NCBI GenBank assembly: GCA_032433595.1
Contig: JASWJB010000032.1
Span: forward strand, 124,001 to 188,000
From: Conoideocrella luteorostrata
Lineage: Eukaryota > Ascomycota > Sordariomycetes > Hypocreales > Clavicipitaceae
DNA: 64,000 nucleotides
Reading direction: 5' to 3'
Of the stretch, positions 22,107-53,806 are shown piece after piece. The translations under genes were made by a program, and so were the position numbers. Each line of letters starts with the position of its first letter. Within the stretch, counting starts at the first letter, position 1. Below the pieces are notes generated by a model. The model did no database searches, was not told the origin of the DNA, and saw only the letters and a list, made by a program, of their open reading frames with translations.

Positions 22107-25100
22107 ATGGCTGATTTCCATCCCGAACTCCAGGCCAAGCTCGACAACCTGCAGCGGGAGCTAGAGGTTCGTCAATGTTTGTGTGGTTTTTGGCTATGCG
22201 AGACCCTCGGGTCCCTTTTCTCAACGATTGATTGCTTACAAGTTTTTTGCGAATAGGAGGGAGATATTACAGAAAAAGGGTAGGCGCCGACTTGACATAG
22301 ATACGCCCGCTACTTCTTCATTCCGCCCTTTTCCCTTGTCATTTCACCCCTCGCCAACAAATGTGTAGACGAACGGCTACTCTGACTCTGACATTTTTTT
22401 TTTTTTTGATGTCTAGATACCAAAAACGACGTGCATTTCTACTTGCTCAGTATGGCTATGGTGAGCCCAGCGCTCCAGCGCAAGCGCAAGCTCCTCCGCC
22501 GCCCGTCATTCATGAGCCCCCTCCTCCGAGAACCGGCCTGCGAATTCACGACCCAGATAGCCCGACACATGCACCGTACGATGGCCACCGAGCCAGTGTC
22601 TACAATGCCGTCGGTGGTAACGTAGCAGATCCCGCATCTCCAGTATATCACAACGACTCAGATTTTGGCCATCAGCCAACAGCTTCACATATTCCCGACA
22701 ACAATCATCCCGCCGGCCTCTTGCGGCCGGGTGGTCCCATTGCTGAACGCCATGTGACCGCGCATCGAGATTCTCTGTTCCTACCAAATACGGCTGCTTC
22801 TAGTGACGTGCCTTCTCGGAGTGGAACGATGGTGTCTAGAGACTACGCTTTCAACCCAGAACAACAAGGCACGTACGCTGATGCGGGGCAGCAGCACCAA
22901 CCGCAGTTTGACGGAAGGACCCGGACGTTGCAAGACTCCCAAGGGTACTTCTCCGACTTTGCTGGTCAGCAGCACTACGATCAGACGCAGACTCAGACTC
23001 AGATTCAGGCTCAACCCGGTGCTGAATATGGGGCACAGCACAGATATTCCTTGGGAGAGGCTTTCTCTCCCACGGCGGCTATGCCTCCTCCAATGCTTAC
23101 GGCGAACGACCTGCCCCCCCCTGAGGTTCTGGAATACTTGCAACCTCTCGAGCCGCGAGAAGTTCCGTTCGCGATTCAGGATCCGCACGATAACGCCGTG
23201 CCCATGTCACGGTTCGACAATTTGGCTGCCGTCCTCCGACATCGCGCTCGCACAACGGCCAAGGTCCCCGCATACTGGGTTCTGGACGGCAAGGGCAAGG
23301 AAATCGCTTCTATTACTTGGGACAAACTTGCATCTAGGGCCGAAAAAGTTGCTCAAGTTATAAGAGATAAAAGCTCACTATACCGTGGCGATCGCGTCGC
23401 CCTTGTCTATCGCGATAGCGAAATCATCGACTTCGCCATCGCCCTGATGGGCTGCTTCATTGCCGGCGTTGTTGCTGTGCCTATCAACGATTTGCAGGAC
23501 TACCAGCGTCTCAACTTCATTCTGACTTCAACCCAAGCGCACCTTGCCCTGACAACGGATAACAACCTCAAGGCGTTTCAACGAGACATCACAGCGCAGA
23601 AGCTGACGTGGCCAAAGGGCGTCGAGTGGTGGAAGACAAACGAGTTTGGGAGTTATCATCCTAAGAAGAAAGATGACGTCCCCCCATTGTCTGTTCCGGA
23701 TCTGGCGTATATTGAGTTCTCTAGAGCACCAACTGGGGACTTAAGGGGCGTCGTCTTGAGCCACCGCACCATCATGCACCAAATGGCATGTATGAGTGCG
23801 ATTGTGTCAACCATTCCTGGCAACGGCCCGGGGGATACCTTTAACCCGTCTCTGCGAGACACAAATGGCCTACTCATTGGGGGGAAAAAATCCGGCAGCG
23901 AGATCCTGCTTTCGTACTTGGAACCTCGACAAGGCATAGGCGCGATTCTGGGCGTATTATTTACTGTTTATGGTGGTCATACTACTGTTTGGTTTGACAA
24001 CAAAGCTGTGGAAGTCCCTGGTCTCTACGCACATCTTATTACTAAGTACAAAGCAACGATCATGGTAGCGGATTATCCCGGCCTGAAGCGGGCAGCGTAT
24101 AATTATCAACAGGATCCCATGACGACTCGCAATTTCAAGAAGGGCACGGAACCTAATTTCCAGTCCGTCAAACTTTGCTTAATTGATACCCTTACTGTGG
24201 ATGGAGAGTTTCACGAAGTGTTGGCTGATAGATGGCTGCGTCCGTTGAGAAACGCTCGAGCAAGACAAGCTGTTGCGCCAATGCTGTGTCTCCCAGAGCA
24301 TGGTGGTATGGTGGTGAGCATGAGAGATTGGCTGGGTGGGGAAGAGCGGATGGGGGTCCCGCTCAAGCTCGAGCGGGAAGCAACAGCAGACGAAACGGAA
24401 TCAGATGAGGATGACAGGATAGCCAAACCTGTCCCTTCGAATGGGTTTGGCAGCTTGTTGGGCGGCGGGACGACAACAACTACCGAAAAGAGTGCTAATA
24501 CCGAGATGAACGAGGTTTTGTTGGATCGCGAAGCCCTCAAAACCAACGAAGTTATTGTCATGGCGTATGGCGATGAGGTAGCGAAAAAGGCACCCAACGA
24601 GCCAGGGATGGTCAGGGTCGGCACATTTGGGTATCCTATCCCCGATGCTACTCTCTCCATCGTTGACCCTGAGACCGGCCTCCTGGCTTCTCCTAACACT
24701 GTTGGCGAGATATGGGTTGACTCCCCTTCCCTATCTGGTGGATTTTGGGCTCAGCCAAAAAATACGGAGCTCATCTTCCATGCCCGGCCTTACAAGTTTG
24801 AACCTGGTGAGCCCACCCCAACACCTGTGGAGCCAGAGTTTCTGCGAACCGGCTTACTCGGCACGGTCATCGAGGGGAAAGTCTTTATTTTAGGTCTTTA
24901 CGAAGATCGGATCCGACAAAAAGTAGAGTGGGTTGAGCATGGCCATGAAATTGCCGAATACAGATACTTCTTCGTGCAGCATATGGTTGTGAGCATTGTC
25001 AAGAAAGTACCCAAGATCTACGACTGCTCCGCCTTTGATGTATTTGTCAACGATGAACATCTTCCAGTCGTTGTGGTTGAGACGGCTTCAGCATCTACAG

Positions 25101-27955
25101 CCCCTCTTACCTCAGGCGGCCCTCCCAGACAGCCTGACACGGCGCTACTGGATTCTTTGGCCGAGAGGGTCATGGAAGTGCTCATGGAAGAACACCATCT
25201 CAGACTCTACTGTGTCATGATAACTCCACCCAACTCTTTGCCCCGCGTTATTAAAAACGGGAGACGCGAAATCGGAAATATGCTCTGTCGACGAGAGTTT
25301 GACCTCGGCAATTTGCCATGCGTCCACGTCAAATTCGGAGTAGAGCATGCCGTGCTTAACCTCCCCATAGGCGTTGACCCAATTGGAGGCATCTGGTCCC
25401 AGATTTCCTCAGATTCACGATCGGATATCTTAGCACCGGCCGAGAAACAGTACTCAGGCATTGACCGAAGAGAAGTTGTTATTGACGATCGCACTTCTAC
25501 GCCGCTCAACAATTTTGCTTGCATCACGGATCTCATTCAGTGGCGCGTGGCACGACAACCTGACGACCTTGCATACTGTACGATCGATGGGCGCGGCAGG
25601 GAAGGGAAGGGCATTCCCTGGCGTAAATTTGACCAAAAGGTTGCGGCTGTGGCGATGTATTTGAAGAACAAGGTCAAGATACGACCCGGAGATCATGTTG
25701 TGCTGATGTACACACATTCCGAGGAGTTCGTCTTTGCCGTTCACGCATGCATCAATCTAGGCGCAGTAGTGATTCCTATGGCGCCATTAGACCAGAATCG
25801 GCTCAACGAGGACGTTCCCGCATTTCTTCATATTGTCGCGGACTACAACGTCAAGGCTGTGCTAGTCAATCAGGAGGTGGACCACCTGATCAAGTTGAAG
25901 CCTGTAACCAGCCACATCAAGCAGTCTGCTCAAATCTTAAAGATTGCGATTCCGAGCGTTTACAACACCACAAAGCCACCTAAGCAGAACAGTGGGCTCC
26001 GAGACTTGGGCTTGACAATTGATCCCGCTTGGATCCGGCCTGGCTATCCCGTACTTGTTTGGACATATTGGACACCGGACCAGCGAAGAATAGCGGTTCA
26101 GCTGGGGCACGATACCATTATGGGCATGTGCAAGGTTCAAAAGGAGACTTGCCAGATGACCAGCTCACGTCCTGTGATTGGATGTGTGCGGAGCACCACC
26201 GGCCTTGGCTTCATCCATACCTGTCTCATGGGTATTTACAACGGCTCCCCAACGTATCTCCTTTCACCCGTGGAGTTTGCCCAGAACCCGATGTCGCTTT
26301 TTGTCGCACTCTCTAGGTATAAGATTAAGGATACTTATGCGACATCTCAAATGCTGGACCATGCTATGGCGGTCATGCCAGCTAAAGGCTTTACTCTGCA
26401 TGAGCTTAAGAACATGATGATTACGGCTGAAAGTCGCCCTCGGGTTGACGTTTTCCAAAAGGTGCGGTTACATTTTGCCGGCGCAGGCCTGGATAGGACC
26501 GCTATTAACACAGTCTACTCGCACGTCTTGAATCCCATGGTGGCATCAAGATCATATATGTGCATTGAGCCCATTGAGCTGTGGCTTGACACAAAGGCCT
26601 TGCGCCGAGGCCTCATTATGCCCACGGATCCGGAGACTGATTCGAGAGCTCTGCTTGTGCAAGACTCCGGAATGGTTCCCGTATCAACACAAATTGCTAT
26701 CGTGAACCCGGAGAATCGCACGCATTGTTTTGACGGGGAGTATGGAGAGATTTGGGTAGATTCAGAGGCTTGCGTAAAATCCTTTTACGGATCAAAGGAT
26801 GTCTTTGATGCGGAGAGATTTGACGGACGAACAGTGGATGGTGATCCCAATTTACCATACGTCAGAACGGGCGACCTTGGGTTCCTGCATAATGTGAGCC
26901 GGCCTATTGGGCCCGGGGGAGCATTGGTTGATATGCAAGTTCTCTTCGTGCTCGGAAGCATTGGTGAGACGTTCGAGATCAACGGACTGAGCCACTTCCC
27001 TATGGACATTGAGTCATCTGTAGAGCGATCGCACCGTAACATAGTGCCCGGTGGCTGGTGAGTGCTCAGTCCCGAGTTTGCGTCTTTGACCCCTTTTTGT
27101 CCGTGCTAACAAGTTTGCAGCGCCGTCTTCCAGGCAGGTGGGCTTGTCGTCGTACTCATCGAGGTCAGCCGAAAGCCATATCTCGCGTCTATCGTGCCTG
27201 TCATTGTCAATGCCATTTTGAATGAGCATCAAATCATCGTCGACATTGTCGCATTCGTCAGCAAAGGAGACTTCCCTCGGTCCCGACTTGGTGAAAAGCA
27301 GCGGGGCAAGATCCTCGCAGGATGGGTTACTCGTAAGCTGCGCACGCTCGCGCAGTTTGCGATTCGCGATTTGGATGCCGCCGCTATGGGCGAATCGGGC
27401 AGCGGCAGCGGCAGCGGCGATCTCGGAGATGCCAACAGAATGTCAACGGGCAGCATTCGCAGCTCGGGCGTCCCCGCCGGGGCCTCAAGCTTGAGAAATG
27501 TCGAACATGCACCGCAGATTTTGGAGCAGGAGGAGTTTGACGTACAAATGGATCGCATGTCCCACATGCCTCCACCACAAGTCCCGCCTCCTCGTATGTC
27601 CTCATTGGACCCAGCAGATGATCAGGCAACACCGACAGGATACGCTCAGAGCGTTGGCCCGCCGGGTGCCCGAGTTCACCGAAAGGCAGTAGGGCAGCAC
27701 GATTACTTTGACAATGCGGCGGGGCGTGAGGAGACTTACCACGATGACGAAAAGCCTCCGGCAGTGGGACCCAAACCTGGAACGTCGGGAGGCGAGAGCC
27801 AAGCTGCTCCAACGATAAGAATGAGCCTCCCGGGCGTTGATGGACGAGAGGGGTTCAACTTTTGGGATACTCCCCAACGTGAGGATGACGAGACGGATTG
27901 GACGGCGGATGCAATCATGCACATGAATCTTGCTGGGGATATGGGGCCCAAGTGA
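22107..27955 (+). CDS. CPS1: CPS1-type protein: DMAP1-binding domain plus two AMP-binding domains (DIP2-like)
   Basis: Four exons, 22107-22166, 22257-22279 (a 23-nt microexon), 22417-27057 and 27121-27955, give 1,852 residues. The N-terminus MADFHPELQAKLDNLQRELE, continued by EGDITEKGYQKRRAFLL across two junctions, is a DMAP1-binding domain. A Pro/Gln/Ser-rich linker follows. The first adenylate-forming domain begins near residue 292 and the second near 1056. The layout is that of fungal CPS1 and animal DIP2 proteins, related to acyl-CoA ligases and adenylation domains but without carrier or condensation domains. CPS1 was described as a virulence factor in Cochliobolus. The second domain keeps VRTGDLGF; the first has LRTGLLGT, with the usual ATP-contacting Asp replaced. 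The phosphate-binding loop of the first is IEFSRAPTGDLRGVVLSHRT, divergent from the SGTTGxPKG consensus. The C-terminal 180 residues are low-complexity. Confidence 0.92.
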
Positions 27956-28743: not shown

Positions 28744-29875
28744 TTACCCCTGCCTATGTATCTGTGTCTGGCTGTGCGATGGCGTAGAACTCGCAGGCAA
28801 CTCATACTGCATCTCGGCAGATACCTCCTGTGGCGCAGGGTTATGCAGCATTTCATGCGTTGGTTGTTGGGGAACACGGTTATAAATTTCGTAGGAAGAA
28901 TACTGTGGCGCTGGAGAAACACCGAGACTGCCTGCTTTGACATCTTGGTGTTCCATGTAGTACTGTCCATTTTCACCCAGAGATGCGGAGTAATCCCTTC
29001 GATTTGGTTTGGAGGCTCTTCCACGACGTCGCCAAAGGAAGAAGCCAGCAAGGGCGAGTGCAATGACGGCGAGAGTGACGCCAATGCCGACGCCGGCGGC
29101 GGCACCGGATGAGAGGCCGCTCGACGTTGTCGAAGACTTGGGCGTAGAGGTAGAAATGCCGTCGGTGGTGGCGGTTGAAGTGGTGGATGTAGTGGGAACC
29201 TTGTGATAGTTAGCATGTGCTGCGCCGAGAATGAGGAGTGAGAACGTTGAGACATCATACTTTCGTAAAGGTCGTGGAAAAGGCGGCTTCGTCGATGTTT
29301 TTTACACTCGTCAATAACCACCGTTGGGCAGGTTGATAGATCTTGGGGTCGGTATCGCTGCTCATAAACATTGGGTTTCCGGGATGCACGTCCATGTTGA
29401 ACTTGGTGCCATTCTGGACATTTTGAAAGCGGTATGTTTCATTGTTACTCGGGAACAGCGTGATATCCCACTTCTGGGTGTCGGCGCCATCGGAGCGTAG
29501 CATACATGGCTGTATATGTTGCTCGTCGATTTCGTCGCTGTTGTAGCACGTTCCAAGCTGCTTCATGATTTTCCTCTCGGAGTTGCGAACAACATAGCGG
29601 GCTGGATTGGTCGGATCGACTGGCAGGAATTGCCAGTATTGAGGGGGACTAGGAATCGGAAAGACGGCAAGCTTGTCGCCATTGTTGCTGCTCGGGTTGA
29701 GAATTTGGAAGCTGGATTGGAACGATGTCTTTTTGTAGTCGTCTACACGACCCTCGGTCACTGCATTACATGTCAGTGGATGTGAGAGGTACGGGGAGAA
29801 GACGAAGATTGATGGGGGTGACGAACCGTGATACCACACGTTGGGGTCGAGCTTAGCCGGCGTGAATTCGCCCAT
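28744..29875 (-). CDS. Ricin-type beta-trefoil protein with one transmembrane helix
   Basis: Three exons on the minus strand, 29875-29827, 29760-29261 and 29199-28744, give 334 residues. Intron 1 (66 bp) is a multiple of three without a stop; intron 2 is 61 bp. The N-terminal 180 residues show a spaced Q-x-W pattern (QYWQFLPV, QKWDITLF, QRWLLTSV), the hallmark of ricin B-like beta-trefoil folds, which often bind sugars. A Ser/Thr-rich linker follows, then a single helix GVTLAVIALALAGFFLW near residues 218-236, then RRRGR and a polar Gln/Pro-rich tail. No N-terminal signal peptide is present, so the trefoil may be exported by the helix acting as a signal anchor, or may stay cytosolic. Ligand and role are unknown. 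The domain call rests on the repeated motif and length, not on an alignment. Confidence 0.72.
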
Positions 29876-32009
29876 TTTGACACTGGTTTTCGCACTCTGA
29901 TTGATCCCTCAGCTTCTGGAGTGGTGAATTTGCGCTGTCCGCCGTTCGGTTCTTTCTTAAGTTTTGTCTATATTAGTGAGTGTTGTAGATGTCGTACTGG
30001 CGGGATCGGATCGAAGCGGCAAACTCTCGTGGATGATGTGAAATTCAGATCAGAAATTGATGAAACAGAATTAGTTCGGCTCAGAAGCCACAATTGACGC
30101 AGATTTCAGCGGCAAGCGAGGGGGTGCGCCAGCTACGGCCTTTCATAAAAGGGATCGGCGGGCTTGTTTTCACGATCCTGGTTCCAGGACCAGCCTACCG
30201 TTCCGCGGGCCTGTGCGGCCTCCCCAATCATCGCGGCTTGCTTGAAGGTGCCGGCGCTTGGTCTAAGCATTAGGATAAAAAAGACTGGGTCTGCTGTCAG
30301 CTTGGGCGACGGTGCGTGGTGGGTGGTGTCCTCCGAGAGGCTGGACCCAACCATCGTGCTTGCCGTCGAGCCAAGCTGCCGAGTTGTGACGGCGATTTGT
30401 ATTGATGCCCACATTGATTCACTGCGGGTGATTTGCTACGGGTCCCCTGCTGGAATACGATATGAACCGAACGAAGATGCACTGACCAACATCGCAATCA
30501 CGGCTGCATGAGTTCCTGCCGTCAAGAGAAGCCGAACCCGCCGTTCTTGCCACAAATTATTTGAGGGTCTTCTGCTTTCGGCGGCCATGCAGCGGCTCTG
30601 CCAGCTGCCATGTATTGTAGTGAATTGTTACTACTCCATTCCCGAAGCATGGACCAGTGGACACCTTTAGTGGTCAAACCTTGAGCTCTTTTTTCTCCAG
30701 TAGTGCCTGGTGGCTCGCCTCGGCCCGCCGTGGAAAGGGCGCAAATACAGTCCAGCTGGTGCAAGGCGTTTCTCGATGAGCCTGATGTCGTGCGCCTTCA
30801 TATTCATTTCACCCGCTCTTTACTCCTCGGCGGTTCAACATCCGCCACCACAAGGACCAGACATATCGCTCCCTCCCGCCGTCATTCGCCTGCGGCATAC
30901 TCCGTTCAAGTACTCCAGTTCCCTACATAGTTAGTATCGTCCTCCGTACTCCGTACACAGGATGGAGTAAAGCAGCGGCGGAGGCTTAGCGCATGCATTT
31001 AGCGCCACAAGCGTCAAGCGCGCTGTGGGCAGGATCCAACCAACCACTTACTGCAACTGGCGAGGCTATGCTCCTGGTGTCTGAGCCACCGTCGCGTTCC
31101 AATTCTGGAATCAATTGCAGGAGCGTAATGAAGACAGCGCGAAAAAGCCCCATCATTTGTACTCCGCTCCGTATGTTCGTTTTGTATGGCGGTTCGTCAC
31201 AAGGCCTATCTATATTCTCACGCTAGTGCGCCTAGGCTTATTTAGCTAAGCTTTTCCTAGACGACTGGATGGTGGACCTGGGATGTGGTGAGATTTTAGC
31301 GTTATACCCTGCCTACATCTGGTACATCGGCAGGCCAGAGGGCCAATGATACATTGCTATCGGGCGCGACAATAAAGGCGACTTGGAAAATCTCGTACAT
31401 CAAACCAATGACTAGGGTGAGGTTGGATTCGATTTAATCCGATACCTACTATCAGTACTCCGTACTCCGTAGAGAGTAATGACCTGTCAAGTCGCAGTAA
31501 ACCCTACCCTTGCAAGACAGTACGCTACATTTATGCAAGATCGTTGAAACCTGCATAACCTCCGCGTGGGGGTTACATTCACTCCAGCCATGCGCTGTGG
31601 GACAAATGCCTAGGATTCTTTTGTCAAACCGCTTAACTATGGCAAGTACCAATCCCTTAGCTTATGACGTTAACCAGAATTAATGTTAAGCCTATACATC
31701 AAAGTCGGCCTGAAGCCTGGCTGATGAATGAGTGCAGTTTCGTTCCGACGCCCACAAGGCTGTGAGCTGCAAGACTGAAGGCGCAAATGGTAGGTTTATC
31801 CTTCAGGTTGTAAGGATTTACTCCTGGTACAGAAGTTGGCTAGTATCAGTGTCACAGCGTACGAACGCGGGTAATGGGAAGCGGGATTTCTATGCCATTC
31901 TTGTTCATATGATAGATACAACCTAAAATCCCAACACTGCCTTTCTCAGCAATATTGACATGCTAAGCTTTTTTGAATATAGTCCACCAAATTCTGATGC
32001 TTGGTTTAT
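29876..32009. other. Long intergenic stretch, no gene recognised
   Basis: About 2.1 kb between the trefoil gene start and the 3' end of the small secreted protein gene. It holds several TACTCCGTA elements (about 30943-30955, 31159-31173 and 31456-31471). A 93-codon minus-strand frame at 30133-30414 was considered but has no supporting feature. Confidence 0.5.
31456..31471. repeat. Direct double copy TACTCCGTACTCCGTA
   Basis: Two overlapping copies of TACTCCGTA in an intergenic region; a member of the dispersed family described in the findings. Confidence 0.9.
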
Positions 32010-33681: not shown

Positions 33682-36600
33682 ATGCATCAAGACGTTCTGG
33701 AATGCATAATCAACCATGTTTTTTTGCCTCCGAAACTACCAACAGAGCATGATGGTGATGATTACCAAAAGCCCTTGCTCAACCTGCTAGCATCTTCTCT
33801 TTCTGATTTTGCAGCGAACTGCAGTGGCCAACATAGCAAAGTTGTATCAGATGCAGTCGTTGCCATTAAAGAGTTTAAAAGCATTATGGATTCTAAGGGC
33901 AATATCGACAAATCAAAACTTCACGCATTGCTCAAGCGGCTCGCAGTTAAAGGTACTTTACTTGCCGTCGTCTAGCTATGCCCGTTACTAACTGCTATTA
34001 AGATACCTTTTGTGTCCCCCTATATATCAAAGCCCAAAATGCCGCTATTCTCATAAGAAAAGCAAACAGTTCTGTCCAATTTCACATGTGGGAGCTATCC
34101 CCAGACAATGAATCTGTCTTGGGGACCACCGGCCGCCTCATTCGATTCTTTCCCGACGTTGGAGTCTCAATTCCCGCAGAAAAAATTAAGGAATCCAATT
34201 TTTTGGCTTTCCTTGCAGATGCAATTGCCACCATGAGCATCCAAGAAGCAAAGGATATGAAAATGCAAGCATCCACTCACGGAGCTGCGGACGAAAGGGA
34301 TACTACGTCCCCTGCACTCGTTACAGAGCTTCTTTACGGCTACTTAATGTCCATGGAAGGATCGTCACTCATTGCAGACGGCGTATGGAAGTGCACGAGA
34401 GAAGAAGTCGTTTGGGCCAGAGGATGCAAACTGCCTTGGAGACGATCACCATTCTGGCTTTTCTTGCGAGTCACCTTGCATCTGGCTATTGGGAGTCTCA
34501 CTGGCCAACGAACCATTCTGTACAAAAAGGCTATTGCATTCTTCATGTCACGAATTCTGACAGAAAGTGTCAAAGAGGGCTTAGAGAGTAACATTGTGCA
34601 TTGCATGGTCATGAAGATTAGCGGGCGTGTGCACAACAAACTTGACTTAACTGTTGAAGAGGCCTGGATGTCCATTGTGCACGACGCTCTATCGGCGGCG
34701 AGACATTTGTTGCAACTTAACTAGGAGTCAGTGCAACGAGAGAACATAAGGAAGGATATTTCATTCTTTCCTATTTCCGCTTCCAAAATACAGGCCGATA
34801 CGCACATAAAATTGCCTGACTTAGACACTTTTGTGGCTGGAATTGCTCACCGTACGAAATCCACCTCAACCAATTGCATACATCCGCGGTCACATATAGT
34901 TGTGAATAGTCATGATGAACTTCCCTCCCTTGATTTCTCACATGTGGACATCAAGTACAAGGACTTTAATTTGTTCCAGTTTGAGTTGTGGGTAGCAAAG
35001 CACTTGGACGACTGGATTGAGAAGCATGCCATTGATGCAGATGCTTGTTCACGGCTCAGAGAGCTATCCAAGAATTATTTTGACATTGCTTCAAGCTGTG
35101 GCAAACAAAATCCCGAACAAGTCTCATTGATGGTATTGGCCATTCTGGAGCTTTGGGTTGCTTGCGACAGATCGGCTGTGATACACAACAATCAGTTGGC
35201 GCTATTTAGCCCTGAAATTTCTGTCGACATATGGGGACCACTCCTCTTACGCTCTAAAGAGAACATGGAGAGGCTTCACAAAGCTGAAAACTATCTTGCT
35301 GCGAGAGATCAAGCTGCGACGTCTGGGACCGCAATATTTGACAGCTTCGGCACGAAAAAGTCGTTCGCTGTGAAGTCATTTAATGCCAATGAAAAGTACC
35401 AGGATGACTTGGAAAGAATAAAAATGACGGCACAAAGGTCTCGAGACGCCAAAATTGAAGAGCTCTCGATGAAAAAAGAGAGATTCAACTCCAAGATGGC
35501 CGTCTACAGCAATACTTCATGTGATCTGGATAATATAGCGATTGATGATCCAAGTGAGGCCCGGCATAGTGCATCTTGTAATCGATGCCAGCATAAACTA
35601 GAAGCATACAAACTTGATATCGACAGATTTGAATGGCCACTGCCGTCTGACTTGGACGAAGAAAAAGCTGTTATATTCGAGCTGTCGCCTCCGCCATCTT
35701 TCCAGGCCTGGAGAGACTTCACCCTGTTTTTCTTGTCCAATGTTCTAAGGGAAAGTAACGAGGAAGACAATAAGTCTAAGTCGTCCGGAACTGGGTTATG
35801 CCTGGATGCATATGCAAATGAAAACGGGTGGGCGATTGGAGGATCGCCATACATGATAAATTCGCGAATCACCGTAAAATCCGACGTGAAGAAATCACAT
35901 CGCCCATTAAAAATATCTTCAGACATACAAAAGGAAGAGATTTTTGTTGAGAACACGCGCCGCTGGCGATATGTTGATCAACTAGCTCGCACGAATCTGC
36001 ATAAGCGGCCTACCACAGCTTTATCGCAGCTGTGCACAGTTCAATTATTCAGTTATGCTGATATTTTCCAGTCGTTTATTCATCAGTCGCGTCAGCAAAG
36101 CGCGGCGAGGTTGGCCAATACAGCCATAACTAATTCGAGCAAGTGCCCTGCTATGTCGACTCAAGAGTACAGAAGCTTGGCACTTCTGCCCCAAGGCCAA
36201 CGCACCACTTGGCTCGATATTCTACAGCATCTGGCTATGCCAAAAGTGGACTTCAAAAAACCGGAAACTGCTCTCATCATGCTTCAGAAATCTATCCAAG
36301 CAGGGACCGCCGCATCCAATGCTGTTAGAGAGGCACACGCCTTATTGGAATGCCCAGTCTTTACGGAAACTCTGTTAGCGAAGATTGACCAAACTGTTGA
36401 TAGAGTTCAAGACAACTGGGACTCCTGCACGTCATTGTATATATTGATCACATTGATCATCCGTGCACTATCAATTGGACATTCGAATGTTAGGGCGAAA
36501 CTGTTGCATTGCTTGTCAAAATGCCGGAAAATTTCACGCAGATGGACAACGGACCTGCATAACAGGTTTATTGCGGAAAATGAAAGCCCTCAGCGGACTA

Positions 36601-39600
36601 AATTTATTCTCAAATGTGTTGAAACTGCGTTGATTTGCGTAGAGACTTTCAACCTTGATGAAACGATGTTGGATGCCACACTGAACAATGATCATGATGC
36701 TGCAACGCTTCTGAAGTGCTCTTCACTCATCAGCGACAATACTCTCGATATTAGCCACACTCATCAGCTGAACACAATACTCAAATTCAACTGGAAGAGG
36801 ATCATGTTCAAATCACACAAGACTCTCCTTAATCGGGTTACGAGGAGTGGATTTCTCGACGATGTTTTACTGCGCAGTTGCTCTGGCACTTTGACATCGT
36901 GGACGCCTGAAGCAGGATACTGGGTCAAGAGTTCCAGAAGCTTTCATGAGGGGTCGTCGCATAGTATGCTCCAATTCAATTTACTTACCGCAGAAGTATT
37001 TATAGACGGTGTTCCCATCGGGAAGCTTCCAAATGATGTGGAGTCACATAGCCAGTATTCCACATTTTTTGGACAGATGCGCTTGGACGTTGAACTATCA
37101 TCCCATGAGCTGGGGATGCAATACAAAATCGTATTTCCCATACACAAGTATGAAGTGGCCTTAGGTTTGTCGAAGCCTTCCGACGTTGGTGAGCGCGATT
37201 TCAACATTATAGCATGGAGAGACAAGCGGCGCCAGGATCTGGTCCCCGCGAGATTATTCAAGGATCGCGTCCCACCGGCGTTTAGTGATGGCTATGTCCA
37301 TTGGCTACATGAAGACAGGCGTACTATAGAGCTTCGACCGGCGGCAAGTCCTTGGCAGGAGAGTCCTAGTAATTGGACTCTACAACAGCGTGGGCAAAGC
37401 TGGCAACTTGTTGAACCTTCGGGAAGTGTCTTGGTGAACCCAACCAGCGATATCACCGTCGAAATTTCCACTATCTTCCTACCTCTGGCCTCACCAGAGG
37501 ACATTCATGTGCTCAATGATGAAAAAGGCTCTCAATTAAAAATTCGACTACCTAAATTGCGACTGGACTTCACTGTCAAGTATGACACATATCGTATTAT
37601 GTCAGAGCAGTTTCCTGGCATGTTCGTTGACTCCAACCAGAACATTGAGACTTTAATCGGATTACAAAACATTCTTACGCTCGCTAGAGATAATGGAGAT
37701 CGTATGATTATTATTCCGGAAGGCGATGTTAGATTCAAATGCGTCAACATAGCTACAAGGAACCAGCATGTTCGGGTTACCATTGAGGTAGGGCAATCCT
37801 CCAATTTTTACACGTACGATGTGGATAAAAATCTTGAACAATTGGTTGGAGAAACCCTTCAAAGCAGGCTGAATCTCGCCTATCTTCATGCATTGACTTC
37901 TTACTGTGTTCCTGACCCGTTCACAAAGCATACAGGTACGGAACAAGCTTTGGACATTATTCACTCGGGGGAAGTTCGTTCATTCGAGAACTTGTCACCC
38001 GACGATCATGCAAAGTTGTTGCAAATAGCGCAACTGAGAGAAACCCGGCGGTTATCGCAACCTCTTGCGGGTAAATTGCAAGTCGTGTCTTGGGTAGATG
38101 GCCTTAGTGCTTTGTCCCACCATTACGACTTCCGAACTGCTGTCCAACACATCTTCGACCAATCCACCAAGTATGCCTTTTTTCACCCAGATGACTACGT
38201 AGAACCTCCAAATCTAGAAAATACTGAGCCTGTGGATTTGGATCAAAGGAATGCTATTAGATCGTTGACATTCTGCATCGCGGGCTATGAGGCGGCGGTA
38301 TACTCAAAAAGTGATGACAAAGAGTATGGTCACCTTCAGCGCAGACAGCCCGAGAGTAGCAAACAGGATGAAATAGACGAAGATGACTCGGATTCTGAAC
38401 TAGGAGAGGAGTGGGAGGATAGATTGGGCAATGTACAGCCTCTAACAAGTCGTTGCAGGAGAGTATTCAAAACATGCTGCGCAACGAGGCCCAACTGGTT
38501 GGAAAATTATCATAATTACTTCAAGAGCGCTCATTCATCTAGAGTTTTTGCTTCAAAAGTTATAAAACTTTTAAGGGGCACATCAACTACTGTCACCGCT
38601 GGGCCAATGAAGAACACAGGACAGTTTGACTTTAACTACGACGCAAGCTGGTTGGATGACCCATCAATTCTCTTTCCTGGCACTTGGTTCCAAATAATAC
38701 AGTCTTTACGCAAAAGACCATTTTCAACTAACAGATACAAATTCAGGTTTTTCTTGGCAGCATTATCGTTTTCTCGTTATCCTTGCGCGGAGGGTATCCA
38801 GATTCTAGCGAAGACCATGCATGACCCAATCGACCCGCAGCCACTGATACCTCAAGTGGATGGCTTCTATCTGAACAAAGGATATAAACCAAAGAAAAAG
38901 GACGTTGAGCAAATTGTGTCAAATGCCATCATAACGTTCGCGAAAAGTGCCTACTCCCAAGGCCACCGACGTGTTGGGGAAAGCAGGCACACGATATTGT
39001 CGAGGCAACAGAAAAAGCATGGGTATGCGAAAGTCAAATGCCAGATGTTACTTCCAGATGAGCTTATTAAACAATGGGGAGGTAAAGAAGAAGTGCAGTG
39101 GCCAGAAGATCTTAATAAGTTCAAAAAAATTGTCGACGTTAGCAAGCTGATGTCAAGCATCAAGTCTCACTTTCGTGCTGTCGAAGATAATGAGCAGCTC
39201 CGGAGGCACTTTGCACAGTGGCATGTGGAGCTATCCTCAACTTCGCGACAATGTGCTCCCTACCCAGATGAATGCCCCAGAAGACCTTATGAACCAAGAA
39301 ATAAAAGACAGAGAGTGGATATATTTACTCAAAACTCGGCACCACTGGCTGAGCCGCGCAGGACCTACAATCTGAGCGACTGGACCAGACCAGTTAAAGC
39401 TCAGTTCAATCCTGAATTGCAATCACTTGTTGAAATTTTGCGAAATAAGTCAAACTCTTCTCAGCAAAAAAAGTATGCTGAGAATCTACATCAAAGCAGT
39501 GTGGCTTTAAAAGAAGCAGTTGTAGGACACGAAATTCTCAGGTCCGGGCCAGAGCTTCGAACGTTACTGCCGACTTTTATATGCTCCGCAAGATTTGATC

Positions 39601-42600
39601 TGGACCGGTACATGAACACAATTAGGCGTGCTTTAGGTTGCATACCTGCAAGATCTGGAAGCAATCTTCATATGCTGAGAGCCATAGCGCAGATTCCGCG
39701 TCTGCCTCGAGTTGGAACCCGCTTTTTGCTGCAACAACTGAAAAGACTGGAGTTGCTATCTCCAGAATGGAAGGCTTGCCTAGTTAGGTATGCTGATGAT
39801 TTGTCGCAACTGCAGCTATGGGAAAGGATTTATCGAGCCGCGACACAATCGCCAGGAGACCTTGAGAAAGAACTTACTAGCCTGCAGCCTCGGAATTGGG
39901 ATCCATTTGTACATCCTGACTGGCTAATATTTGAAGTTGAGAACAATTTGCGGGTGCGAAACGTTCAAGCTGAAATTGCACAAGCAATGATGCATCCTCC
40001 GCAAAACGGAAATACAGTTATGCAGTTGAACATGGGGGAGGGTAAGTCATCAGTCATTGTGCCAATCATCGCGGCATCTTTGGCAGATGGCGAAAATCTA
40101 GTTCGTATCATTGTTGCAAAGCCTCAGTCGCGACAGATGGCGGATATTTTAACGCGCCGCCTGGGTGGCATATTGGATCGAAAAGTCTACTACCTCCCCT
40201 TTTCGAGGTCTGTTTCTATGAATGAGGCTGCTGCCCATCAACTTTATGCAATGCTGCAAGAATGTGTGGCAAACAAAGGAGTTTTAATAATCCAGCCAGA
40301 ACAGGATCTCTCTCTGCAGCTTATGATACTTGATTGTTTCATTAGCGCTAAGCGGTCTTCTATTGGGGAGATTCTCGTCTCCATTAGACAGCTTTTTGAC
40401 AACAAAACTCGCGATATTATTGACGAAAGTGATGAGATTTTCTGTCCCAAGTACGAGCTTGTATATCCCTTGGGAACACCGCAACCGGTTGACTTCTCAT
40501 TGGGAAGATGCCATATCATCCAGAGTATGCTATCAATGGTGGCAGACGTGGCCGTGAGTGTCCAAATCGAGGTGCCAGATGGCATAAGTATATCTTTCTT
40601 GGACGGTAGATATCCAAGAATACAAATATTCACCGAGGAGGCATCGAAGCTCCTGAACAAGAAGGTTGGAGAAAAAATTTGTCAATCTGGTCTAGCCGAA
40701 CTTCCGGTTCACCGACTAGAAGAACAGCTAAAGCGCGAAATTCTGACCTACATCACGCAGAGAGCGCCACCTGACGAGAGTGTTCTACTTGTTAGGACCA
40801 AAATTGAATCCTGGGATTTGGACAAAAAGAATACACTTAATCTGGTGCGAGGAATATTGGCGCACGGCTGTGTTTCAACAGCACTGAAACATCGTTGGCG
40901 TGTGAATTATGGTTTGGATAAACTGCGGCATCCCAAAACCGATCTGGCAGTCCCATATAGAGCCAAAGACACACCAAGCTTGCGGTCCGAGTATAGCTAT
41001 GCCGACACAACCATTACCAAAACTTGCATCTCATACTATCACGAAGGGCTAAAATATGCAGAGTTTCAGTCTGCTATGGAGCATTTGCTCAAATCTGAGC
41101 AGCCACACATAGAGTACTCAGTTTGGGTAAAAGACACCCCTAATCTTAAACCGAGCTTTCATTATCTTGAGAGTGTCAATTTGCACGACAAGGAGCAGTG
41201 TGAAAGCTACATATTTCCTCATTTGAGGTTCTCCAGAGCTTGCATTAACTACTTTCTTGCCTGCAAAGTCTTTCCGAGGCAACTCAGAGAGCACTCGGAA
41301 AAGATTTCTGCCTCTGGATGGGATTTAGCACGCCACAAAACCCTTCCTACCACAGGCTTCAGTGGAACGCACGATTCTCGGCATCTACTGCCTTTGAGCA
41401 TCGAACAACACGATCTTGATACTCAAAAGCATACCGACGCTCTGGTTCTGAACAACATTCTCTCTCCTCACAATTCCATCTTATGCCTCGGCGAGAACCA
41501 AATGACCAATAGTAGTATCGCAGAAGAATTCTTGATACGAATGAGCGTCGAAAAGCCTCAAATCAGAGTGATACTTGATGTCGGAGCACACGTTATAGAG
41601 CTGGGTAATGAACAGGTGGCTCGGAAGTGGCTTGGTCTAGTGCGACAGCGGGATGATGTTTTCGGAGCCATATTTTGCAATGAAAAAGATGAGCTGACAG
41701 TCTTAGACAAAGACGGCCAACTACAATGCCTACGGCTCTCACCACTCGCCAACCAGCTGCACAAATGTGTTGTCTACCTCGATGAAGCTCACACGAGGGG
41801 TATAGATCTGAAGTTTCCCTCCCAGTACCGCGCGGCGGTCACCCTTGGGAAAGACCTTACCAAAGACAGGCTCGCGCAAGGTATGAGATTATTTATATTC
41901 ATTGAAGCTGAAGTTGAAATGCTAATACAGTTATAGCATGTATGCGAATGCGAGAGCTCGGAAAAGGGCAGTCGGTCACGTTCTGTGTTCCGCACGAGAT
42001 TGAAAATCGGATACGAGAATTCCAAGAACTAACACTTGAAGAGGACATATCTGCTCTTCACGTTGTTCTTTGGACCATAGAACAAACTTTCGCGGAAACT
42101 AGTCGTCTCATGCCAAACTGGGCAAGGCAAGGTGGGCGACATGAGCGAGAAGCCGAATTATGGGATCGCGCAAGATCCGGAAACACAATAAACATGACCA
42201 AAGACCTAGCCAAGCAGTTCAGAGAAGACGCCGTACTGACGATTGAAGCCCAGTATCAGATTCGTCCCTCTCCCAACTCGACTTCGGATTCTGCCGATAA
42301 TGATGGCAAAATAAGTCGCATACACCAGCGAGTGCGAGACCTTGGCTACCGCCTCGACGGTGGCCAAGAACTCCAGGAAGAGCAGGAGAGAGAAATGGAG
42401 CAAGAAATTGAAGAGGAGCGAGCACTTGAACTCCCAAGCCCTCCTCAGCCTGGAAGGCATGAAGTACATGAAGATGTCGTGAAGTTTGTGAAGACTGGCG
42501 AGATTGTACCCTGCAGTAAAGGGATTGTTGGGGCTTTCCAAAGCTTGTCCAACACAGCTGCAGCCACCCAATTCAACGTCATCCAGTTTCCCCAAAGCCT

Positions 42601-43273
42601 CAAGGTCACCAAAGATTTTGCCAATGTCTTGAAAGCGGCTCAGCGTCCCACAAAAGAGAAATCGGACCTGTACAAACGGGACGTCCAGTATATTCTTACA
42701 ACGGCCGACCAAGACCACATCGTTCAAGACATGGTGATCATCAGCCCTTTTGAAGCGCAAAGTCTATATGCGGAGATTGAACGCTCCGAGATTGTGACAC
42801 TTCACATCTATTCAGCCCGACAGAATTGCACCTACGCTGCAGTTGATGACTTGGACCTGTACGTGGTTCCTCAGACCACGCGTCGGCGAATTCCAACCCA
42901 ATTGAGGATTGCGTTGAATCTCTTCGCCGGTCAGCTCTACTTTGAGACATTCAAAGAGTATACTGAGGTGTGCGAATACCTTGGCCTCTCCTGGACAAGC
43001 GAAACCAACGGCGTGGAAAACGATGGCTTCATTCGCCGCAGACCCGGTGCCCGTAAATCACCCCACGGACTCAATTCAAAGGCAAGCCCTGTTCCGTTTC
43101 TCAAAGCTTTCATGACCGACGTGAGAAACTTTGGCGGGAACATCGACAAGACTCACATGGGGAAGATGCTCAACGGGGCCATCCTAACAGAGGCAGATTT
43201 TCCGTCGCGCAGAAAACGTAAGCGGGAAGACGATGGTGCAGAGGAAGGTAGTCTCTTTGTGAAACAGGAGTAA
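33682..43273 (+). CDS. Giant DUF6606/DUF3638/DUF3645 P-loop protein, interrupted by one in-frame TAG
   Basis: Exons 33682-33952, 34033-41880 and 41937-43273 (introns 80 and 56 bp) join in one frame of 3,152 codons including the stop. This is the large fungal family often labelled 'ubiquitinyl hydrolase' in databases, with DUF6606 at the N-terminus and DUF3638/DUF3645 behind; its biochemistry is poorly known. Seen motifs are the Walker-A-like MGEGKSSVIVP near residue 2092, IIDESDEIF near 2220, VYLDEAHTRGIDLKFP near 2673 and ACMRMRELGKGQSV across the last junction. Codon 321 (34722-34724) is TAG. By eye it falls where relatives have Trp in a 'RW..VQ' context (here LLQLN-stop-ESVQREN). The frame is open on both sides, with no other break. 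Taken literally the product is 320 residues; there is no ATG soon after the stop for a separate second gene. See findings for recoding, nonsense and intron alternatives. Confidence 0.85.
34707..34739 (+). promoter_or_regulatory. Predicted hairpin with the in-frame TAG in its loop
   Basis: TTGTTGCA (34707-34714) and TGCAACGA (34732-34739) pair over eight positions with one G-U wobble. The 17-nt loop 34715-34731 contains the in-frame TAG (34722-34724). ACT (34715-34717) can pair with AGT (34726-34728), leaving TAG in an eight-base apical loop. The pairing is read from the sequence; any function, such as placing an A-to-I editing site, is inference. Confidence 0.55.
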
Positions 43274-47293: not shown

Positions 47294-49070
47294 ATGTCTG
47301 ACCCAATGCTTTGGCAAAGCCGATGGAACGACACTATTCATCACGTTCTTGGAGGTATTTGTGTTTCACTGATCTCCCTGCTAAGCGAGTTGAGCATCTG
47401 GGGATTGAGTCTGGCACTAGCACCCGCGCGAGTTCAATATTTCGCTTCCATTATCGGCATGATTTTGGTCCTGTCCACCATGACATTCGTTTGCAACATA
47501 TTTCGGAGCTGCGATGACTTCTATCGCCGTGGGATCAAGGCTGGGGTATGAAGCTATGCCCCGTTGCGCGCTGTAGAATGATTGCTGAGTTGGCGTACAG
47601 GTCGACTTTATCAACGCTCAGCTCGGGGTGGCATTTAGCGTACCAATCATCATGTTGAATCATGTGCTCGGCATTCGCGACATTGGCTACATTGTCGTCA
47701 CCTCTGGTAAGTCAATTGCCAAGTTCGGCATCCGTAGTAGTATGCTGCTAACATAGCCAGCCGTTACGAACATTCTCTCGTGGGCCATAGTCTTTTTACT
47801 CAGTCTATCCGGACTCCTCCTTCTCTCGACTGTGCAATCATATACTTCAACCCAAGTGCGATGTTATCAATCTAGAAGTTCAATCTCACCTCAACGGGAA
47901 CAAAACGATGGGGCGGGCCCAGTCATGGTCCATCCGTCTGAAAGTCTCTGGCAGTATTTGACTCCAAACGATTCGTCCAAGACTTCTGGAGGCCAGTCCT
48001 CCTCGTCCAGAGATCAAAACATATGTGGCAAATCTATAAGCACATCGAACTCAGAGAAACGTGACGAAAGCCTATGGTATCTCTTAAAAAGCAACGGCTA
48101 TCTCTTTGTATGTCTTGTTGGAATCATCGCCATAGGTGTCCCCATAGACTTGACGCTCCGGGACAGCAGGATGCTGGACGGCTTTGTCCTATGGCTTTGC
48201 TGGATCATCTCTATCCGCCTACAGCGCATGGTGAAATCAATCTCCTTCCCCATCATCAATCTTCGCTCTAGACACACCCTGGCCATCATGATAAATCCAG
48301 TGCTAGTCACCACAATGCTCATGCTCGGTTACACCCGCATGAAAGGAACCCTCGGGCAAGGCGGCGGTATCACCAGCGTTCTGGAAAGTTTCAGCAGCGG
48401 TACGCCCCTCTACTCCATTCTAACAGCCATGACAACATCCTCCTCTCTACCAGATAATCCGAGCTGCTGGTTCGGAGCTGGCGATGTCGCCCTCTCCCTA
48501 CTGGAGTGCGGCATAGTCGCTTGGGGATTCAAGCTTTACGAATGCCGCCACCAGTTATTCAGCATTTCGGGCGTTGCCATCCTCTTGTTCTGCTCTGTTG
48601 CTGCCGCCGGGAATGTCTTTCTGTCCGTATTACTGGCGGCCACGCTTGGGCTAGACAAACCGGAGGCGTTAGCATTTGCGGCCCGAAGCTCAACTCTTGC
48701 CTTGGCGAAGCCCGCTGTGAAAACACTAGGAGGGAACTTGGCTCTTAACGCCACCCTTGTGGTCAGCAACGGAATCCTCGGCCAGCTTTTGTACCCGTTT
48801 TTGCTGGAGAAACTGGCGATTCCAACCTTTGATCAGTCAGACGATAATCAGATGAATGACAAGACTAAAAGCGACAGCCCAATAACAATCGCAGCTGGAA
48901 CTACGATTGGGATCAACGGTGCTGCTATGGGAGTATCATACTTGTATGAGGTGGAGAGTCGCGCCGCACCATATGCAGCATTGTCTATGACTATTTTTGG
49001 GGTCATGACGGTGGTTTTTACGACATTGGAACCGTTCAAGAGCATGGTGCTGCAATTGGCATCACGGTAG
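47294..49070 (+). CDS. LrgB-like (LrgA-LrgB fusion type) membrane protein
   Basis: Three exons, 47294-47545, 47601-47706 and 47761-49070, give 555 residues; introns are 55 and 54 bp. At least ten hydrophobic segments are visible. The N-terminal part (LGGICVSLISLLSELSIWGL and SVPIIMLNHVLGIRDIGY) has the look of LrgA, including the 'P.......G..DIG' pattern. A polar Ser-rich linker near residues 185-245 separates it from an LrgB-like half with RSSTLALAKPAVKTLGGNLALNA and VSNGILGQLLYPFLLEKL. In bacteria LrgA/LrgB resemble holin-related murein-hydrolase regulators; in plants the fused PLGG1 exports glycolate and glycerate from plastids. Fungal members are known but their substrate is not. The plant fusion suggests a small-carboxylate transporter, which is inference. 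Confidence 0.82.
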
Positions 49071-52025: not shown

Positions 52026-52756
52026 AGTCTGCTCAGGAGCACGGCAAAACTCTGTCAGATTACGCGCTAGACCGTTCTTGCTCGTGCTGATTGGCTCTTG
52101 TACCACAGAGGCTAGTCGTGGCTACTTCACCCAGTTTGAGCGGCCTGTTGTTGGTTTGCACTCCAAAGATCAGTCTAGGTTGATTATTGCACACTTGGTG
52201 AATCGCCACCATCACAACCGCCCATTTTGAAGACCCTGATATTGCTTGCTCTTACATTACAGTGGGATCAATACTCAAATATTCTCATATACTTTTATAT
52301 AATTCAAGTTCAGAACCAAACCCACTCTATTGGGCGAAGCTCCAAACGCGTCTGCGTCAACCCAACCGCTGAGGAAAGAGACCGTGGCGAAATTCGACCA
52401 GCCCCACATCCAGGCCCCGTCGACTCACGCCTTCGCTGCCTGCCTCGCAGCTTGTTCTTCGAAGAGAGTCTTCCGCTACTCTCTTGCCCCCCGCCGACAC
52501 GCGCTTTTCTTTTCCCATCTCAATCAACAAAGTCAACACTGCTCACTTCAGAGGGTATCATCGCACGCCCCGCGTATCGCAACACCGCAGTCTCTTCAGA
52601 TACCATCGGCGTGTTTGTTGTACTCACTCACTCATCTGCAATCGTGATTTGCTTACCCAATACTTTAGAGGCAAGCACGTATTTCAACAAAACTTAGCAG
52701 TTCCTTCCCGTAATCACCACGGACGATACATACACGAATACCCAGCCTCTTGTGAA

Positions 52757-53806
52757 ATGGCAACCCCACAGTCAACTGCGTCTTACGAGGGCAGCGGCCC
52801 CAACAAGAAGCTCGAGCAGATTACCTTTCGTTTCTGCTCCGAATGCTCCAACATGCTGTACCCTAAGGAGGATGAAGATGCACACAAACTGCAATTTACT
52901 TGCCGGACCTGCCAATATACTGAGGAGGCCCAGTCTACCTGTGTTTTCCGCAACGTCCTGAACAACTCAGCTGGCGAAACCGCTGGTGTGACCCAGGATG
53001 TTGGATCCGATCCGACGGTTAGTGAAGTTCCACCTGTCCTTTGTTTAGGTTGTGGATGCCTCATTTTTTGCGATACCTGTGGAGATTTGGCGACGGAAGT
53101 GGCTGTAACCGAGGCAGTTCAGTCAGAAAAGTGTCATTTGGAAAGTATGGGCATGTGCAAGTTCACCCTTCCCTGGGGCGAAGCAGAAGATCCCTTCGAC
53201 GAATACGACGAGGAGCTTCCCGATGAGGGCTGTAGCGGCCTTGCTAGCCCTACCTTGACCGATCTGCACTCCGATACGACCGACGGAACGGATTTCGCCG
53301 ATGATGGCGCGATAATTGTCGCTCTATAAGGATTTCGAAGGCTCAGAGTCAGCGACAACCTTCAGCTTGGATGATCAAAATGGTGGAATGCAAATACGTC
53401 GCTTACGATCTATCTGGATATCTTCAAACTGGGACGACTGGGTTCTTGCATTTGGATGGAAAGAGTTGGCGGTTGCGAGAAGTGGCGAGCAGTTGCAGTG
53501 GACGCGTGTCTCCTTCTTGTTGGAACTCGTTAACCTTTTGCCTTTGAACCTGCTGGCTGACACATGATTTTGTTTTTCTTGATTACAGCTTCCTCGTTCG
53601 AACAAGACTTGCCCAAGATGCAACCATGAAGAAGCTGTGTTCTTCCAGTCTCAGGAGCGAAGTGCCGAAACTGGCATGGTAAGCAACCACCGTCCTATAT
53701 TGTGTCTCGCCATGGGACGTGGATTTCACTTTTGGGTATACTAACGAGGCTGGTCGGGAAGAAACTATTTTATGTCTGCTGCGAATGCGGTCATATTTTC
53801 GACTAG
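52757..53806 (+). CDS. RPB9: RNA polymerase II subunit Rpb9
   Basis: Small zinc protein of RNA polymerase II that affects start-site choice and fidelity. Exons 52757-53017, 53589-53678 and 53762-53806 give 131 residues, against about 122 in yeast. The first zinc ribbon has FRFCSECSNMLYP and FTCRTCQYTEE; the second has KTCPRCNHEEAVFFQSQ and, after the last intron, KLFYVCCECGHIF. SDPT joined to LPRSNKTCPRC is the family sequence, which fixes the first junction. That first intron (53018-53588) is 571 bp, far longer than others here, and its first 312 bases continue the frame without a stop until TAA at 53327-53329. The second intron is 83 bp. The frame is also open upstream of 52757, but the Rpb9 start fits the ATG in TTGTGAAATGGC. 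Confidence 0.9.

Follow-up and report, generated by a model that had tools for sequence, protein, structure and literature searches.

A giant gene of the DUF6606/DUF3638 family in the fungus Conoideocrella luteorostrata (Clavicipitaceae, Hypocreales, Sordariomycetes) is interrupted by a single in-frame TAG at a position where its relatives have tryptophan, and it is probably activated by premature-stop-correction (PSC) A-to-I mRNA editing, as is PUK1 in Fusarium. The gene lies in a stretch of 64,000 nucleotides, which was analyzed at its full length and is denoted the window here; it is part of contig C32 (225,376 bp) of the C. luteorostrata assembly. An earlier note on this DNA had put forward three ideas for the stop, namely mRNA editing, a very recent nonsense mutation in the context of RIP, and a short intron, of which editing appears to be the best reading. 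We prefer it because it explains together what is observed: the Trp column at the TAG, the intact remainder of the gene, the rare cis-context of the site and the machinery-like genes with which the species is equipped. The editing of the RNA itself, like its tissue and the enzyme responsible, we infer.

Without mRNA editing, the transcript would yield only a 330-residue stub with the DUF6606 domain. Activity of a deaminase that edits UAG, be it the sexual-stage Tad2-Tad3-Ame1 or a different one, would convert A34723 to inosine. This adenosine is predicted to be located in the loop of a hairpin; U precedes it and G-G-A-G follows. The edited UAG would then be read as Trp, giving rise to the complete product, about 3,160 residues long.

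Gene structure and the tryptophan column

The gene comprises three exons separated by two short introns (Table 1). The Pfam profiles PF20255, PF12340 and PF12359 matched it above cut-off, with 183.8, 290.6 and 37.9 bits, respectively, which places it in the DUF3638 family. Exon 2 begins at 34003 rather than at 34033, where the earlier note had set its start, and the extra residues are also present in the deposited protein P0003 (QQS21_002673). The stop is accordingly codon 331 of 3,161, in place of codon 321 of 3,151. The TAG itself was correctly recognized: it is in frame and the sole internal stop of the spliced 3,161-codon frame, and it separates open stretches of 240 and 2,403 codons, which we take as more than chance. 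The next in-frame ATG lies 135 codons 3′ of the TAG, in agreement with the previous claim that no early restart is at hand.

As in a PSC gene, the UAG stands in a conserved and otherwise intact frame, at a residue that relatives have as Trp. The alignment of orthologous proteins around the stop, which the earlier note had called for, bears out its suggestion that the stop replaces Trp: among the 119 aligned relatives listed, the column holds Trp in 114, Ile in two, and Arg, Met and Leu in one each. These 119 are the 120 listed of 162 protein matches, minus the gene's own deposited protein. A second protein search added 41 new relatives, 38 with Trp and three with a gap at this column. Only 145 of 2,498 well-filled columns are equally conserved.

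Two further features mark the family. Its GEGKS loop is invariant in 19 of 19 rows apart from one Glu, and in the same number of rows the DEAH-like box has D in 19, E in 16, A in 18 and H in 18. Neither the downstream part of the protein nor a 19-row profile matched a solved structure by sequence. The genome contains a DUF3638 paralogue on contig C40 (P0089), which shares 34% identity over the region searched, belongs to a different clade of the tree and has Trp at the stop column. The third DUF3638 locus of the genome is found at C115:24430-34266 on the plus strand (L016/L017); by eye, its frame breaks resemble ordinary introns.

Table 1. Coordinates of the gene, its in-frame stop and associated features in the window.
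Feature	Position	Strand	Remarks
Exon 1 of the DUF6606/DUF3638 gene	33682..33952	+	ATG to GT donor; agrees with the N-terminus of P0003
Intron 1, 50 nt	33953..34002	+	GTACTT...TTACTAACTG...AAG; CTAAC inside
Exon 2	34003..41880	+	Open apart from the single TAG; DUF6606 5′ of the stop, DUF3638 and DUF3645 3′ of it
In-frame TAG, codon 331	34722..34724	+	Family Trp column; candidate editing site A34723
Predicted RNA hairpin	34709..34737	+	GUUGCAACUU(AACUAG)GAGUcagUGCAAC; A of UAG in the loop
201-nt in-frame "intron" of the deposited model	34709..34909	+	GTTGCA donor; covers the TAG; judged an annotation artefact
Intron 2, 56 nt	41881..41936	+	GTATGA...CTAAT...TAG
Exon 3	41937..43273	+	Ends at TAA stop

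Elsewhere in the window, open reading frames gave matches to RicinB_lectin_2 (29258-29908, minus strand; E 4.6e-07), to an LrgB-like domain (47757-49067, plus strand) and to an RPB9 zinc ribbon (52373-53326, plus strand). A DIP2/Mug62-like gene with AMP-binding domains (PF24919, PF00501, PF23024) occupies two open stretches at 22301-27952 on the plus strand.

Sequence context and predicted hairpin of the site

Edited sites of F. graminearum are described as preferring C/U at position -2, U at -1, A/G at +1, G at +2 and A/G at +3 and +4, all six preferred bases being present at 8.7% of all edited sites (PMC9600606). The site in the window reads C-U-A-G-G-A-G and has the preferred base at six of six positions from -2 to +4. 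The U before the candidate A is as the earlier note said; the TAG itself fixes both this U and the G at +1. Because two of the six positions are set by the stop in this way, other TAG triplets provide a fair control. All six positions are matched by 25 of the 1,209 TAG triplets on both strands of the window, a count that includes the site. Seven of these 25 lie in a hairpin loop, and three have a hairpin at least as stable (site included). In the gene's 47 TGG codons, the four free positions are never all matched, and three of them are matched in 17.

In the predicted hairpin, which has a free energy of -8.8 kcal/mol over 31 nt, A34723 is unpaired in the loop. This placement was obtained in folds of ±10 to ±40 nt and of ±100 nt. 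At ±50 and ±75 nt the hairpin was not the minimum (probability of an unpaired A of 0.51 and 0.66, respectively), and at ±100 nt it was back (0.99). Hairpin loops are common around such triplets: 357 of the 1,209 TAG triplets in the window are predicted to lie in one, 163 of the 1,209 in one that is equally or more stable. With shorter folds the number rises to 544 of 1,211, and within exon 2 a hairpin loop is predicted for 30 of 67 UAG. The hairpin is weaker evidence than the six-base context. The fit of the site to UAG editing that the earlier note had proposed is borne out.

Integrity of the gene downstream of the stop

We found no second stop or frame break in the 3,161 codons, consistent with the previous statement that the downstream part shows no decay. 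Random substitutions in this coding sequence would be nonsense in 4.1% of cases, and zero further stops would correspond to a neutral divergence since any loss of less than about 0.8% (our own Poisson estimate, based on nonsense changes only). The gene is therefore either still under selection or dead only very recently.

In 351 columns with at least 90% agreement among the other sequences, the window gene keeps the conserved residue in 310, differs in 39 and has gaps in two. We call it a fast evolver because, among 100 full-length rows, only five keep a smaller share of these residues. Four of the five are clade mates (Epichloe, Pochonia, Metarhizium rileyi and P0004), and the other is from Hirsutella. 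All four mates have Trp at the stop column, and each keeps a smaller share of conserved residues than the 310 of 349 kept by the window gene. In a quick tree of 43 rows chosen from the 100 full-length ones, the window gene and its four mates form one group with an SH-aLRT value of 100. The end branch of the window gene measures 0.57, those of the mates 0.72, 0.52, 0.27 and 0.30; the nearest relative other than the gene itself is 42% identical over the tree columns. Fast evolution is a trait of the subgroup, within which the window copy is unremarkable.

Several relatives (P0010, P0015, P0019, P0047, P0066, P0091, P0114 and others) lack between 10 and 280 residues in columns that are otherwise well filled. 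In part these gaps may reflect false introns that span a stop, in part simple mis-annotation.

Machinery-like genes and other UAG-containing genes of the genome

Fusarium mRNA editing is reported to require Tad2, Tad3 and Ame1, the last being a DUF726 protein in which the Met500-Val501 pair is essential and the triad consists of S531, D589 and H629 (PMC11087585). DUF726 matches were found at three loci in the C. luteorostrata genome. One is an Ame1-like gene (C81:73476-74557, minus strand; L041) with Met-Val 31 and 30 residues N-terminal of a GYS serine; at this distance the other two loci have Ala-Ser and Ser-Leu. The spacing in the C81 gene equals that between MV500-501 and S531 of FgAme1, and the GYS serine would correspond to S531 by our reading. 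Eight matches of the dCMP/cytidine-deaminase type are present as candidates for Tad2 and Tad3.

The PUK1 orthologue was sought by a kinase search, which gave at least 141 matches (122 of 266 candidates scored); none of them was recognized as PUK1. In twelve of the loci matched, one TAG was the only stop. By eye, most of these TAGs look like intron ends, and no tandem-Trp site was recognized in the 12 loci. A protein-kinase-like locus at C85:12415-12957 on the minus strand (L028) has its in-frame TAG in the conserved-looking stretch NAY*VIELAPTGDLF, where it is not clearly an intron end; the A of this TAG falls outside a hairpin loop in folds of ±20 and ±30 nt. A search for the MAT alpha-box gave no match here, nor in the control genomes, and is hence uninformative.

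A second type of UAG editing, OLD-ZAO of Neurospora, is outlined in a 2025 commentary, in which an OTT_1508-like deaminase edits the UAG of an adjacent zinc-finger gene (PMC12754623); the homologue in Fusarium is CHE1. The genome has nine OTT_1508-like matches, none of them on C32, and the window gene does not adjoin such a deaminase. On comparison with 148 C2H2 matches, two of the nine, one on C181 and one on C377, proved to have a zinc-finger gene no more than 4 kb away. Each of these zao-like genes carries one in-frame TAG in its first exon (C181:24397, minus strand, L059; C377:9405, minus strand, L060), at codons 68 and 77 as counted from the likely ATG, both starts being putative. The expectation that UAG-gated genes stand beside such deaminases thus held in both pairs found. 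The two genes also have a common intron position and the motif EMPSCD. At both sites the A is predicted to lie in a loop of 4 nt on top of an apical stem of 4 bp, beneath which there is an internal loop, and 4 and 3 of the six F. graminearum context positions are matched. When the first exon from one of the genes was used as a protein query, 17 candidates emerged, none of them significant, so that the grounds for the ZAO reading are the neighbouring deaminase, the C2H2 fingers and the in-frame TAG. We regard the C181 and C377 pairs as candidate OLD-ZAO modules in Conoideocrella. For the site in the window we favour Tad2-Tad3-Ame1, since its context is matched at six of six positions as compared with 4 and 3 at the zao-like sites.

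Alternative explanations of the stop

The stop might instead lie inside an intron, either the 201-nt one taken by the deposited model, whose product has 3,094 aa, 67 fewer than the open frame encodes, or a 48-nt one at 34677-34724 that the earlier note had proposed. Both would preserve the frame, and FgBUD14 of Fusarium is described as combining UAG editing with alternative splicing of a UAG-containing intron (PMC11156358). However, at least half of the residues that the 201-nt intron would delete are present in 118 of 119 aligned relatives listed (median 67), and all 16 residues of the 48-nt intron in 119 of 119. In both accepted introns a CTNAY branch motif lies 15 nt before the end, whereas the nearest one is 64 nt from the end of the 201-nt intron and the 48-nt intron has none. 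The genome paper describes strain ARSEF 14590, presumably that of the window, obtained from an infected scale-insect crawler, and an Illumina assembly at 51.6x coverage with five polishing rounds; its account of the annotation names funannotate with UniProt protein alignments and BUSCO training, and RNA-seq goes unmentioned there (PMC12352038). We therefore consider it very unlikely that the TAG is removed by splicing, and judge the 201-nt intron to be an annotation artefact masking the stop. A precedent is found in the paper that discovered fungal A-to-I editing, according to which PUK1 and no fewer than 69 further genes of Fusarium had their stops masked by a false annotated intron (PMC4817773).

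The main rival to editing is a very recent nonsense mutation, perhaps specific to this strain, through which the gene would have been lost and decay would have yet to start. One TAG is the simplest lesion, and the relatives have Trp; the cluster of the deposited protein has one member, so that there is no second strain for comparison, and with further DUF3638 loci on C40 and C115 a loss might be tolerated. Such a loss would nevertheless have to be recent, given the low ceiling on neutral divergence estimated above, and a chance change of TGG to TAG would usually have landed in a poorer context, none of the 47 TGG codons having the full one. On balance we hold this explanation to be unlikely, though it deserves to be taken seriously. 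RIP would account for the change as a CpA-type transition on the other strand, and the genome has DNA methylase-family genes (three matches at two loci). The indices of exon 2 (TpA/ApT 0.62; (CpA+TpG)/(ApC+GpT) 1.45; composite -0.83) are nonetheless within the range of five neighbouring open reading frames (0.46-0.67, 1.10-1.40 and -0.94 to -0.55, respectively) or beyond it in the direction away from RIP, a 4-kb piece of the gene finds no second DNA copy in the genome, and the change is a single one in 9.5 kb. With neither an index signature nor a duplicate found, RIP is unsupported, and it is extremely unlikely that it struck the gene. A one-base sequencing or assembly error, to which an Illumina-only draft could be prone, is highly improbable in view of the coverage, the polishing and the finding of no second copy of the stretch.

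Editing by premature-stop correction, which remains our preferred reading, has to contend with several observations of its own. The Trp in four clade members leaves a sharing of the stop between species without support. Predicted hairpin loops are common among TAG triplets, and that of the site is lost as the minimum at two fold lengths; the gene ranks low in its share of kept conserved residues, and a PUK1 orthologue was not recognized in the genome. In addition, an infected insect crawler was the source of the presumed strain; if its lineage were asexual, sexual-stage genes could decay.

Wider meaning and comparison with known systems

We know of no edited member of the DUF3638 family. A search of the literature on the DUF names listed no title on editing, and the editing literature, judged by title among the matches listed, gave no study of Clavicipitaceae. 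If the RNA is edited, premature-stop correction would reach an insect-pathogenic genus of this family of fungi and a protein family without assigned function, and the deposited gene model would be wrong and conceal a regulatory switch. The in-frame TAGs of the two zao-like genes point to a possible action of stop-codon editing at more than one locus of this species, and for this reason other annotated "introns" may hide edited stops.

A more speculative reading, which we consider doubtful, is that stop-codon editing serves here as a switch beyond the known sexual-stage genes and zinc-finger regulators, perhaps in a vegetative stress or antiviral programme. Such a programme may apply because the hairpin in the window resembles those of the zao-like sites in the same genome. 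On this reading a giant DUF3638 protein, which has the GEGKS loop and DEAH-like box of its family, would be held off by the UAG.

The likeness to OLD-ZAO lies in the predicted fold: the UAG in the window is also placed in a hairpin with a small loop, whose apical stem measures 4 bp and is interrupted further down by a bulge or internal loop. A hairpin class of this kind comprises 20 of 1,211 TAG triplets (site included); it was defined after the sites had been seen and was not used as a test. The folds differ in that the window hairpin has a 6-nt loop and a 3′ bulge, as compared with the 4-nt loop and internal loop of the zao-like sites, and the window gene, unlike the target in OLD-ZAO, has no zinc-finger identity.

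The closer resemblance is to the PUK1-type PSC genes of F. graminearum and N. crassa, which are edited by Tad2-Tad3-Ame1 in perithecia. The window gene has in common with them a UAG at a conserved Trp in an otherwise intact frame, the six enriched context bases, a predicted hairpin loop, a false intron over the stop and, in the same genome, an Ame1-like gene with the Met-Val pair. It differs from them in that it belongs to the DUF6606/DUF3638/DUF3645 family, is a predicted target of editing and carries a stop whose sharing across species is unsupported.
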